Part shown: one piece after another, positions 1 to 4,932 of the stretch
How positions within the stretch are numbered: position 1 is the first letter of the stretch
Layout of the letters: the number at the start of each line of letters is the position of its first letter
Assembly (NCBI GenBank): GCA_025360615.1
Contig: JANYBX010000376.1
Span: 1-32,647, forward strand
Direction of reading: 5' to 3'
Length of the DNA stretch: 32,647 nucleotides
From: Opitutia bacterium
GTDB lineage: Bacteria > Verrucomicrobiota > Verrucomicrobiia > Opitutales > Opitutaceae
Position numbers and translations under genes: made by a program
The notes under the pieces: generated by a model
The model's database searches: none
What the model was told of the DNA's origin: nothing
What the model saw: only the letters and a program-made list of their open reading frames with translations

Positions 1-111
1 TTGGAAGATCACCTCGCCGCGGCCGCCCGACCCTGGTCCACCCCCACCGCCGTCGCCTCTCTCATCCACTCCTGGCTCTCCGATCAGGTAAACTTTGGCG
101 ATCCAGCCTAA
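1..111 (+). CDS. C-terminal fragment of an unidentified protein (5' truncated by window)
   Basis: Frame 1 is open from the first base and ends at TAA 109-111, giving 36 residues that finish with the motif SWLSDQVNFGDPA. The codons are GC-rich at the third position like the neighbouring genes, which favours a real gene tail over chance. No family can be recognised from so short a piece. It ends 32 bases before the tRNA-like repeat at 144, so it marks the left edge of the putative inserted segment. It could be chance open frame. Confidence 0.4.
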   Translation: MEDHLAAAARPWSTPTAVASLIHSWLSDQVNFGDPA

Positions 112-142
112 AGTGTATTAGCTAGGGGTGATTGGTATAAGA

Positions 143-177
143 TTGGCGTCCCCCACGGGATTTGAACCCCGGTTCTC
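143..177 (-). repeat. Decayed 3' end of a tRNA gene (direct-repeat partner of tRNA-Glu, possible att site)
   Basis: On the minus strand this reads as a T arm with loop TTCAAAT, an acceptor strand and GCCA. Positions 143-173 match 3827-3857 of the intact tRNA-Glu almost base for base (TTGGCGTCCCC then ACGGG and GAACCCCGGT). One C is lost from the T stem and one G gained in the acceptor, so the stem no longer pairs well, and no D or anticodon arm follows. A displaced tRNA 3' end in direct orientation is the usual footprint of tRNA-targeted integration. No integrase is visible. The ORF track's ASPTGFEPR peptide at 128 is this tRNA read antisense. Confidence 0.6.
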
Positions 178-343
178 AAAAAAGGTCGGCGCCAGCGACA
201 TCGTCCTGCGTCACGAAGAAAGACCAACCGTCCGCCGCAAAACGAGCGCATCGATTTTTAGGATGCTCAAGCGAATCGTCACAATCCGGAAGCAATCGCG
301 CTCACCTGACATCGCAGAACTCGATTTCAGAATTCTTCAACGC

Positions 344-3300
344 ATGCTCCTCTTGATGCTTTCGTCCAAATCCTGCCACGTTTTCAGAGCATCCGTTCTC
401 GTGGGAGGTCTCATGGCGTTTTTGTTGAACGGTGCCGGTGCCGCACAAACGATCGCCGGTGAACCCCGCGCTTCCGACGATTTGGCTGAAGGCTTTTTCT
501 CTCCGCCGGTCTCGGCCAAGCCCCGGACGTGGTGGTTTTGGGGAGAGTCGGTGATCACTGAGGAAGGGATCACGAAGGACCTTGAGGCACTCAAGCGCGT
601 GGGATTCGGCGGCGTGGTCGTTTATGAGCAAGTTTTCACCGACCGACCGGATGCGTTGAAAAGCCTGTCGCCCGAGTGGCTGAGTCGATTTCGATTCGCC
701 GCCACTGAATGCAACAGGTTGGGCATGACGCTCGAGGTTAACGTGAGCAGCGGTTACGTGGCTGGTGGTCCGTGGATCACGCCCGAATTGGGGATGCAGC
801 GCTTGGTGGCAAGCGATACGATCATCGAAGGAGGGGGTCGCGTGGAGGTATCACTCCCACTGCCGCCTTCACGGCTGGACTTCTACCGCGATGTGGCGGT
901 GCTCGCTTATCCAACACCCGCTGGGGCGGAATCAGACGGAACGAGCCAGGCGGTCATCACCAGCACTCTCGCCGCCCAAAGACGGTGGTTCCGTGTTGAT
1001 CCAATTCGACTATGGCCCGGCTTACACCGCGCGCAGCATCAGCTACTCGCAGCGGCCAAATTGGAAGGCGCTCGTCATCGCGACCCAAGTGCCGACGAGC
1101 TGGGCAGACGACGCCTATGGGGAAAATATGCGCCTCAATCCGCCGATCGGCCAACTAGAAGCCAGCGATGACGGCCACGCATGGCGCGGGCTCTGCAGCT
1201 TGCCCGCGATCGGCCAGCAGCATGACAGCTGGACCCAACAGACGATCTCGTTTCCGGCCACGACCGCGCGTTTCTTTCGCCTGAATCTCAAAGGCTGGGG
1301 TTACAATGACCGCGTGAAAGACAGCGATCTGTTGCTGGCGGCAGTCGTGTTGCGCAATGAGGCGCGCGTGGATCATTGGGAATCCAAGTCGGGGAATGTC
1401 GTCGATTTTTCGAATCCCGATCTGACTCCGGCGTATCAAGGCAATGAAACGATCGATCCTGCTCACGTCGTCGATTTGACCCATCAGCTCGGAGCCGATG
1501 GAAAACTCACGTGGGACGCGCCGCCGGGGCGATGGACGGTGTTGCGGCTCGGCCACACTCCAACGGGCGTGCGCACGAAACACGGACGTCCGGAAACCAT
1601 GGGACTGGAATGCGACAAACTCAGCGCGACGGCCGCACGCGTCCAATTTGAAAACTATGTCGGTGTACTTCTCCGCGAAATTCGCCGCGCTCCCGGCGCC
1701 AAGCTCGCAGGGATCAACATCGATAGCGCCGAACACGGTTCGCAAAACTGGACGTCGGATTTCGAAATGCAGTTTGAAAAACGCCGGGGCTATTCGTTGC
1801 GCCGTTTCCTGCCCGTGATGATGGGACGTATCGTAGGCAGCCGCGAGCAATCGGAGAAATTGTTATTCGATGTGCGGCGCACGATCGCGGATCTGATGAG
1901 CGATGCTTATTTCGGAACGTTTCAGCAGCTCTGTCATGCCGCCGGAATGACTTCGATGGCGCAGGCTCCCGGCATCGCGACGTGCCTGCCCAGCGACAAC
2001 ATTCAGGCGAAAGGACGCACCGATATTCCGATGGGTGAATTCTGGATGACGCAGAAAGACGGGACCATCGATTGCAAGGAGGCGGCTTCGGCCGCGCATG
2101 TCTATGGATTAAGGGTCGCGGCTGCGGAAGCATTTACCGGCAGCGGCGCGGACGTTCAGCCGGCGATGATGAAGCCGTTTGCGGATGCCGCACTCGCCCT
2201 CGGTATCAATCGGTTCGTCGTTCTCGCGAGCATTCACCAGCCTTGGGATGATCGGAAACCTGGCGTCACCGAGGACCGCTTCTACCTGCCTTATCAACGT
2301 CACAACACTTGGTGGGAGGAGTCGGCGGGATTTTGGAATACGCTTGGACGCTCATCGCATCTGCTACAACAGGGGCGCGCCGTCGTGGACGTACTCTACC
2401 ACTTGGGCAACGACACACCGTTGAAGATCGCCACGTCGCGCCTGCGTCCCGCACCGCCCGCGGGATATGACTACGATGTAATGGGCGATGAAGTTTTCCT
2501 TGCTCGTACCCGAGTGGAAGATGGCCGGATCGTTCTGCCTGATGGCATGAGTTATCGCTTGCTCATTCTTGCCGGTGGGCAGCGAATGTCACTCGCGGCT
2601 GCCCGGCACCTGAAGACATTAGTGACTGCGGGTGCGGTCGTGCTCGCCCTTAACAAGCCACTCGAGTCACCGAGTCTCGGAGACGGGACTCGGGGTGACG
2701 AGGAGGTCAGGCAAATCGCCGACGAGTTGTGGGGCTCCGGACCCTCTGCGGTGGCGGGCGAAAAGAAAACCGGCGCCGGGCGGGTCGTTTGGGGCCGCTC
2801 GCCAGCAAACATTTTAGCTGAGTTGAAGATCGGACGCGATTTCGCGCTCGCTGAAGCGCGGCGGGGCGCGTCGGTGCTCTTCGCGCATCGGGCGACTGCG
2901 GACAAAGACATCTACTTCCTCGCGAATCATGGGCCGCACGGCGAAAAAATCACCGCGGCCTTTCGAGTGATGGGCCGGGTTCCGGAATTCTGGGATCCCG
3001 AGACGGGCGCCATCACACGGGCGACGGATTGGCAGATCGTCGGTGAATCAACGCAGGTGAAAATTTCTTTGGAAGCATCCGCCTCTCTCTTTGTTATTTT
3101 CCGCGAGAAATCCTCCAGCAAACAAGGCGTGGAGCCCGCCAAACCCGCTGTGCTCATAAGAGAGTTGCCGGTAGTGAAAACGTTGAAAGGTCCTTGGCAG
3201 GTCCGGTTCACTCCGGGCTGGGGTGCGCCGGAAAAAATTGAAATGCCCACGCTTCAATCCTGGACCGAAGCGGCCGACCCGGGCGTGCGGGCGTACTCGG

Positions 3301-3659
3301 GCTCGGCGGTCTACACGCACGATTTCGATCTCGCGGCCTCCGCGAAAAATGAACGCGTGTGGCTGGATTTGGGTGACGTAGCCGTGGTTGCTTCCGTGAA
3401 CATCAACGGCCACTCGTTGGGAACGGTTTGGAAAGCGCCCTATGCGGTGGACATCACGGATGCGCTTCAGCCTGGTCGCAATCAGCTCGAGGTGCGCGCC
3501 ACCAATCTTTGGAGCAACCGCCTCATTTACGATTCAGGGTTGCCCGAAGCAGAGCGCAAAACGTGGGTGACTTGGAATCCTTATCGCCCGACGGACACAG
3601 CTCCTCCTTCGGGGCTCATTGGGCCGGTGCTCCTCCGGAGCACCGTGTCGCAGCAATAA
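344..3659 (+). pseudogene. GH106-family alpha-L-rhamnosidase-like glycoside hydrolase, frameshifted
   Basis: The product looks like an exported glycoside hydrolase of the GH106 (alpha-L-rhamnosidase) type. The first part (frame of ORF 128-1171) has a signal peptide beginning MLLLMLSSKS at 344, then the family N-terminal motif PRTWWFWGESVITEEGITKD. The rest (frame of ORF 765-3659) has DSAEHGSQNWT, FEKRRGYSLRRFLP, GEFWMTQKD and AAEAFTGSGADVQP, matching the family catalytic domain with its acidic residues. A C-terminal beta-sandwich follows (VWLDLGDVAVVASVNINGHS, ending GLIGPVLLR). The frames join near CGCCCAAAG at 974-981; removing one base there gives a continuous TLAA-KDGGSVLIQFDYG. The gene is therefore about 1100 codons with one extra base. 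This may be true decay or a sequencing error in the CCC run. The start could also be 356 or 413. Confidence 0.75.
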
Positions 3660-3788
3660 CGCGAGTTCCGTCCGGAAGGCCGTGGATTTCCGCCCCGAAA
3701 AAACGCTCTGCGTCATCCAAAAACGTCCCCAAGCCTCGGGGTAATTATTGTCACTTCCATTGTCACTTTGACTACTTTCGTCCACAAT

Positions 3789-3820
3789 AAGCCACGTAAC
3801 TCGCTAAAGTTACGGGGCTT
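3789..3820 (-). terminator. Hairpin just downstream of tRNA-Glu
   Basis: The sequence forms AAGCC and GTAAC stem blocks that pair with GTTAC and GGCTT around an 8-nt loop, with a two-base internal mismatch. It lies 7 bases past the tRNA 3' end in the direction of tRNA transcription, and a run of T residues separates the two. No T run follows the hairpin itself, so it may be a processing or attachment structure instead of a terminator. The rest of 3660-3788 shows no gene. Confidence 0.3.
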
Positions 3821-3827
3821 AAAAAAT

Positions 3828-3904
3828 TGGCGTCCCCACGGGGATTCGAACCCCGGTGCCCACCGTGAAAGGGTGGTGTCCTAACCGGGCTAGACGATGG
3901 GGAC
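3828..3904 (-). tRNA. tRNA-Glu (anticodon TTC)
   Basis: A complete cloverleaf reads on the minus strand. The acceptor GTCCCCA pairs with TGGGGAC, the D stem GTCT with GGAC, the anticodon stem CCACC with GGTGG around the loop CTTTCAC (anticodon TTC), and the T stem CGGGG with CCCCG around TTCGAAT. The discriminator is G and CCA is encoded, giving 77 nt. It is absent from the ORF track because it is not coding. Its 3' half is duplicated in decayed form at 143-177, so it may have served as an integration target. Confidence 0.96.
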
Positions 3905-4020: not shown

Positions 4021-4932
4021 ATGACGTTCGCCGCCATCGCCGCCGCGCTCCCTCCCTCCGCCCGCACAGCCATCACGGGCCTGCCCTTCCCCCTCCTCGC
4101 TTCGGGCAAGGTCCGCGAGATCTTCGACCTCGGTGACGCGTTGCTCCTCACCGCCACCGACCGGCTCTCGGCTTTCGACGTCATTCTGCCCGACGGCATT
4201 CCCGGAAAAGGCATCATCCTCACGCAAATGAGCCTCTGGTGGTTCGAGCAAACGCGGGGCCTCATCGCGAATCACCTCCTCCCCGATCAGGCCGGTGAAT
4301 TCTCCCGCCGAGGCATCGCCGACCGCGATCTCCAACTCCGCAGCATGATCGTGCGTAAACTTAAACCCCTTCCCATCGAGTGTGTCGCCCGGGGCTACCT
4401 CATCGGCAGCGGTTGGAGTAGTTACCAAAAAACCGGCGCCGTTTGCGGTCTCCGTCTCCCCGCTGGCCTGCGCCAAGCCGACCGTTTGCCCGCCTCGATT
4501 TTCACCCCGACGACCAAAGCTCCGAAAGGCCAGCACGACGCCCCCATCGACGACGCCCAAGGCGCCGCCGCCATCGGTTCCGCGCTCTACGAAAAAGTGA
4601 AAGCCACCAGCCTCGCCCTCTACCAACTCGGCCATGACCGCGCCCGCGTCGCCGGCATGATTCTCGCCGACACAAAATTCGAGTTCGGCACCGACGCCGC
4701 CGGCAACCTTATCCTCATCGACGAAGTGCTCACGCCCGATTCCTCGCGCTACTGGCCTGCCGACGAATACCGTCCCGACTGCTCACCACCGAGCTATGAC
4801 AAGCAATTCGTCCGCGACCACCTGCTCGCGATCAACTGGAACCAACAGCCTCCCGCGCCCCACCTGCCCGCCGAGGTCATCACTCGCACTCGGGAAAAAT
4901 ATCTGGCCGCGCTGAAAAACCTGCTCAGCTGA
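4021..4932 (+). CDS. purC: Phosphoribosylaminoimidazole-succinocarboxamide synthase (SAICAR synthetase)
   Basis: This is the cytosolic purine-biosynthesis enzyme that joins CAIR and aspartate using ATP. The 303-residue protein has the family's ATP-grasp-like start LLASGKVREIFDLGDALLLTATDRLSAFD, then PIECVARGYLIGSGWSSYQ and LILIDEVLTPDSSRYWPADEY, which carry the nucleotide and substrate contacts. The length fits the roughly 300-residue form seen in yeast-type and many bacterial PurC proteins. The ATG at 4021 gives a short N-terminal helix before the conserved core and is preferred. The gene stands alone, following the tRNA-Glu on the opposite strand and converging on cinA with a REP-like hairpin between the two stop codons. 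No other purine gene is in the window. Confidence 0.95.
   Translation: MTFAAIAAALPPSARTAITGLPFPLLASGKVREIFDLGDALLLTATDRLSAFDVILPDGIPGKGIILTQMSLWWFEQTRGLIANHLLPDQAGEFSRRGIADRDLQLRSMIVRKLKPLPIECVARGYLIGSGWSSYQKTGAVCGLRLPAGLRQADRLPASIFTPTTKAPKGQHDAPIDDAQGAAAIGSALYEKVKATSLALYQLGHDRARVAGMILADTKFEFGTDAAGNLILIDEVLTPDSSRYWPADEYRPDCSPPSYDKQFVRDHLLAINWNQQPPAPHLPAEVITRTREKYLAALKNLLS

Follow-up and report, generated by a model that had tools for sequence, protein, structure and literature searches.

The window analysed here, 32,647 nt in length, is the whole of contig C113 of the Opitutia bacterium genome G000, whose assembly comprises 557 contigs and is 92.6% complete. ARAGORN found a single tRNA gene in the window, an intact tRNA-Glu(TTC), which has the SAICAR synthetase gene (purC, 4021-4932) on its 5' side. 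On the other side, a broken GH106-like gene is the only gene between the tRNA and a degenerate copy of its 3' end, and the two core copies are about 3.65 kb apart. The contig itself starts within an IS630-like insertion sequence (IS), the end of which is 5-8 bp away from the distal core, on its outer side. The features are compiled in Table 1.

Table 1. Features at the tRNA-Glu end of the window (positions of the whole stretch)
Feature	Position	Strand	Basis
Multicopy IS630-like insertion sequence, right end	1-138	+	Match to other contig ends
Distal attachment core, a degenerate copy of the 3' end of tRNA-Glu	145-173	-	BLAST, alignment
Putative P' arm remnant, TCGGCGCCA-n11-CTGCGTCA	183-213	.	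G001 match, HMM
GH106-like alpha-L-rhamnosidase gene, broken; presumed sole cargo	344-3659	+	PF17132 in two frames
TCTGCGTCATCC, P-arm counterpart of the conserved TGACGCAGA motif	3707-3718	+	Similarity to G019, G001 when aligned
Arm-type direct repeat pair GTGACAAT-N4-GTGACAAT (P arm)	3747-3766	-	Motif scan, 38 genomes
Terminator-like hairpin	3789-3820	-	Sequence and alignment
Attachment core (last 29 bases of tRNA-Glu)	3829-3857	-	Comparison of relatives
tRNA-Glu(TTC), intact	3828-3904	-	ARAGORN

The first-pass annotation had described a direct repeat of the tRNA-Glu 3' end with a mutated distal copy, and this was confirmed by ARAGORN and by a BLAST search of the whole genome with the tRNA region, which returned a copy at 136-173 with 84% identity and a genome-wide E value of 1.2e-4. 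Relative to the intact core, the distal core contains one inserted C, one deleted G, and one change of C to T. It has the same orientation as tRNA-Glu; for a second tRNA gene, which had also been considered, the 3' end is in place and the 5' part is lacking. The genome contains one other match, at C360:1431-1465, which is identical to the tRNA-Glu 3' end at 35 of 35 positions. Beyond these two, no further match of comparable strength was found in the whole-genome search, and therefore the distal copy does not reflect generic T-arm similarity. Outside the core, the distal copy reads on for 6 nt as in the tRNA of other species (TTCTCA), and so does the core on C360, whereas the distal cores of the type found in the relative G019 end at GGT without this continuation. 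The seven bases between the distal core and the IS read AATCTTA in the tRNA sense; in G137 and G202 the tRNA flank begins similarly (AATCTTC), a resemblance that is suggestive only.

On the tRNA side, the 29-bp core was found at tRNA-Glu(TTC) in 20 relatives, either unchanged or with one to two changes. The terminator-like hairpin follows immediately 3' of tRNA-Glu; many relatives have it at the same place, and it also occurs on the outer side of some distal cores. Past the hairpin, 62 nt beyond the core, lie 8-base direct repeats, GTGACAATGGAAGTGACAAT. When 38 related genomes were scanned for exact occurrences of GTGACAATN4GTGACAAT, three sites were obtained, namely that in the window and two in G019, where the motif lies just inside either end of a 64-kb tRNA-Glu island. 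Motifs with one mismatch in G023 and G032 were rejected, having neither a tRNA nor a core close by. The region of TCTGCGTCATCC can be aligned with G019 and G001 and, more weakly, with G007 and G015, and the top match in the window to a hidden Markov model of the opposite arm (P') was 3707-3771 (E=0.009).

The inner flank of the distal core yielded a fainter trace. The starts of TCGGCGCCA and CTGCGTCA are 20 bases apart, which is the spacing of the conserved pair in intact P' arms. An ungapped match to the G001 arm comprises 20 of 28 positions and was equalled by 0.4% of shuffles. With the core left out of the model, the P'-arm HMM gave a hit at 183-213; its E value of 5.9, which refers to about 130 kb, becomes about 0.004 when it is rescaled to the 172-bp stretch. 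Beyond 213, where a repeat pair and the start of an integrase gene would be expected, there is no further similarity; thus the inner motif pair and about 30 bp of arm have been kept, the repeat pair is absent, and a well-preserved arm exists on the tRNA side only. Core and arm are separated by 12 nt versus about 57 nt expected, and therefore an extra small deletion is needed. We read 183-213 as a P' arm with two deletions, and this step is the weakest of the argument.

The GH106-like gene bracketed by the cores had already been recognized as frameshifted. This was borne out, as PF17132 is divided over two frames (128-1171 and 765-3659). Alignment to intact relatives of 1102-1106 amino acids showed that about 50 bp are absent near 930-1000, which accounts for the frameshift, and an assembly error near this position may be the source of the missing bases. 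Intact relatives with 66-75% identity were found in G016, G018, and G014, at other loci. The GC content of the gene is 59.7%, compared to 65.8% for 4021-32647 of the window. None of the relatives examined had a GH106 gene at tRNA-Glu, nor was such a gene seen inside the tRNA-Glu islands of relatives. We infer that the gene was once cargo of an island.

The contig start is occupied by the end of an insertion sequence that is present in several copies. The C-terminus of the transposase is encoded at 1-111, and the terminal repeat extends up to about 138. Four other contig ends encode the same peptide as that ending at 111, and a fifth encodes one with 85% identity; at the DNA level, the identities are 98.6-100% at four contig ends and 91% at a fifth. 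The identity of the DNA runs to about 138-141, after which the sequence differs contig by contig. A full-length relative of the transposase in G010 contains PF13358 (DDE_3) and helix-turn-helix domains, and a transposase of this composition is presumably to be assigned to the IS630 family. The first-pass annotation had taken the tail at 1-111 to belong to the native flanking gene and had suggested searching for it next to an uninterrupted tRNA-Glu in relatives. As a flank marker, this tail is void, and the suggested comparison cannot work, because it is the end of the IS, repeated at other contig ends. Two further candidates for the native flank, the amidase gene that lies beyond the distal core in G007 and G001 and the DUF1552-like gene beyond the amidase, were rejected, with no match in G000 at E<=1e-100. 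A search with the 25-base terminal repeat returned right ends only, so that no contig could be linked across the IS. The IS and the contig end thus cover the native flank beyond the distal core.

The island in G019 encodes a tyrosine recombinase of 383 residues (PF00589), the gene for which starts about 110 bp inside the distal core. Relatives of this integrase are present in 57 of 250 genomes of the taxonomic family, presumably the Opitutaceae. The distance from a distal tRNA-Glu core to the start of the integrase inside it is about 95-120 bp in 12 genomes, while it is longer in G015 (about 260 bp) and G241 (about 650 bp). A scan of the genome collection with the integrase pair yielded one locus only, a family member beginning at a tRNA-Glu core. 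The islands of the relatives use the same tRNA-Glu core in the same orientation, and those contained in single contigs span 53 kb (G137), 56 kb (G065), 64 kb (G019), and 74 kb (G015). Tandem arrays also exist: in G067, a 32-kb element is stacked behind another, and G137 has an extra core 44 kb out. No integrase was found between the cores of the window (145-3857), and none of the G019 type was detected at E<=1e-30 in the 92.6% complete assembly of G000.

The arm repeats of these islands have fixed positions and variable sequences. On the tRNA side, the repeat pair follows the core by 60-62 nt in 11 of 11 arms measured, that of the window being one of them, and on the distal side it lies 75-85 nt inside the core across the family loci. 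The arm word is equal at both ends of the elements in G019, G137, G105, G202, G067, and G065; it is GTGACAAT in G019, GTAAGAAT in G137, G105, G202, and G067, and CTAAGAAT in G065, and the G015 word is GTAAGACA-like. In G001, GTAAGAAT is found at both ends, in a single copy at the distal end, and G106 and G233 contain mixtures of GTAAGAAT and CTAAGAAT. For G105, G202, G106, G233, and G001, the ends are on separate contigs, and one element per pair was assumed. The tRNA-adjacent element of G082 has a different repeat and probably represents another element.

Conjugation genes were found in four of the five islands examined, in G019, G137, G067, and G015, but not in G065. In the G019 island, the conjugation genes encode a TrwC relaxase, a TraG-type ATPase, and TrbI, a set that recurs in G137, G067, and G015, and the island also has genes for multicopper oxidases and P-type ATPases. 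The window lacks relaxase and type IV secretion genes. The conjugation genes of G019 and G137 are 95-99% identical (one, 74%), while the genera are different and the integrases are 75% identical, and this pattern points to a recent exchange of conjugation modules between the two islands. The G019 island also contains a cluster made up of genes of the C-5 methylase, helicase-like, and NERD-domain types (L045:2192-13475), which looks like a defence system.

Other genes were observed at tRNA-Glu as well. In G000 itself, two different integrase genes, both decayed, meet at the perfect core on C360 (L004, 1-4381), and a Cas3-like gene comes after them; for the type to which one of the two belongs, the intact relative lacks a Pfam match. 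A second integrase type, of 402-419 amino acids, occurs in G010, G013, and G009 and on G001:C437. Between the tRNA-Glu core and the start of its gene, which runs in the direction of the tRNA, there are 36-90 nt, and the one protein of this type that was tested had no Pfam match. G001 has two tandem tyrosine recombinase-like genes that converge on tRNA-Glu (L048:5966-8732). The tRNA-Glu region of G006 and G002 contains an AbiEii-like gene (PF08843 in G006) with a neighbour that resembles its AbiEi partner.

Taken together, 145-3857 is very likely the decayed remnant of an integrative element that belonged to the tRNA-Glu(TTC) island family of the Opitutaceae. This reading starts from the two core copies, the identity and position of the P arm, the sister islands with an integrase at the distal core, the absence of that integrase from the assembly, and the IS end. 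The first-pass annotation had proposed integration at a tRNA 3' end and a remnant island, and the islands of relatives at the same core, together with the P arm, support this. A tyrosine recombinase of the G019 type would have recombined attP with the tRNA-Glu 3' end, restoring the tRNA with core and P arm (3661-3857) on one side, while the opposite end of the element received another copy of the core, inward of which lay the P' arm and the integrase gene. Both ends would thus stem from one integration event. Subsequent losses would have removed the integrase, the outer portion of P', and almost all of the cargo, leaving GH106 at a junction at about 213; the deletion of about 50 bp in GH106 and the drift of the distal core would have followed, and an IS630-like element would have inserted outside the distal core. 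This order of losses is likewise our inference. As no integrase lies inside the distal core, we classified the locus as a decayed remnant and not as a functional member of the family; with one arm incomplete and no integrase, it is probably immobile now.

Several observations count against this explanation. The P' match is weak (about 0.004 locally) and displaced relative to the core, the TTCTCA continuation of the distal copy seems to ally it with C360 and not with the G019-type cores, GH106 is found in no relative's island, and the IS and the contig end mask the native flank. The continuation would be accounted for if two elements were involved, with the P arm left by a G019-type island, the distal core by an older and different element in a tandem array, for instance that on C360, and the DNA in between formed by fusion. 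The distal copy and C360 have TTCTCAA beyond the core in common, the C360 core joins two other integrase types, and arrays are known from G067 and G137. However, the TTCTCA stretch is short, and the TCGGCGCCA-n11-CTGCGTCA pair beside the distal core has the spacing of the G019 family, so that we consider an origin from two elements unlikely.

The short distance between the cores and the single gene within it would also suit a non-autonomous cassette, with GH106 between att sites, that was moved as such by an integrase from elsewhere and is not a shrunken island. The first-pass annotation had offered such a cassette as an option; it lost ground with the absence of the distal repeat pair and of any G019-type integrase in the genome, and no second copy of the GH106 cassette was seen in relatives. 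We give it a slim chance. Still less credence, in fact hardly any, is given to a chance match or a stray tRNA fragment next to an ordinary chromosomal GH106 gene. The distal copy is indeed degenerate, but its genome-wide E value is matched in strength by one other copy only, GH106 is not beside tRNA-Glu in relatives, and the P arm is unambiguous.

The remnant in itself is ordinary genome decay, and the island family behind it is more interesting. We lean towards the view that the window is the fossil end of an undescribed conjugative island family in the Opitutaceae, all members of which reside at tRNA-Glu(TTC), each subtype having its own 8-base arm word (GTGACAAT, GTAAGAAT, CTAAGAAT, or GTAAGACA) at fixed distances on both sides. 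The specificity of the integrase and the arm word would apparently have changed together, and the conjugation modules would have passed between genera (TrwC of G019 and that of G137 share 99% identity), against a difference of 25% between the integrases. A limited open-access literature search returned no paper with a title on mobile elements of the Opitutaceae, about which little seems to have been described; because the check was limited in this way, the term undescribed is provisional. The remnant points to tRNA-Glu as a hotspot across the Opitutaceae, with insertions by several integrase families that stack in tandem, and the natural series of integrases with paired arm sites could show which residues set arm-site specificity.

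In comparison with known systems, the IS at the contig start resembles the IS630 family in the DDE_3 domain of the transposase relative and in its multicopy ends, which stop at about 138; it differs in that it merely flanks the remnant here, with the other half of the IS beyond the contig. The 64-kb island of G019 has the same core as the window and the same P-arm word at the same distance from the core, whereas it has kept the integrase, the TrwC, TraG-type, and TrbI genes, and cargo genes for multicopper oxidases and P-type ATPases, and lacks GH106. Like integrative and conjugative elements and genomic islands that are inserted at tRNA 3' ends by tyrosine recombinases, the locus has a direct repeat, a tRNA restored on one side, arm repeats flanking the core, and, in its intact relatives, an integrase beside one core. 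In contrast to these elements, the segment between the cores has neither an integrase nor transfer genes, one of its arms is partly deleted, and a broken GH106 gene is left.
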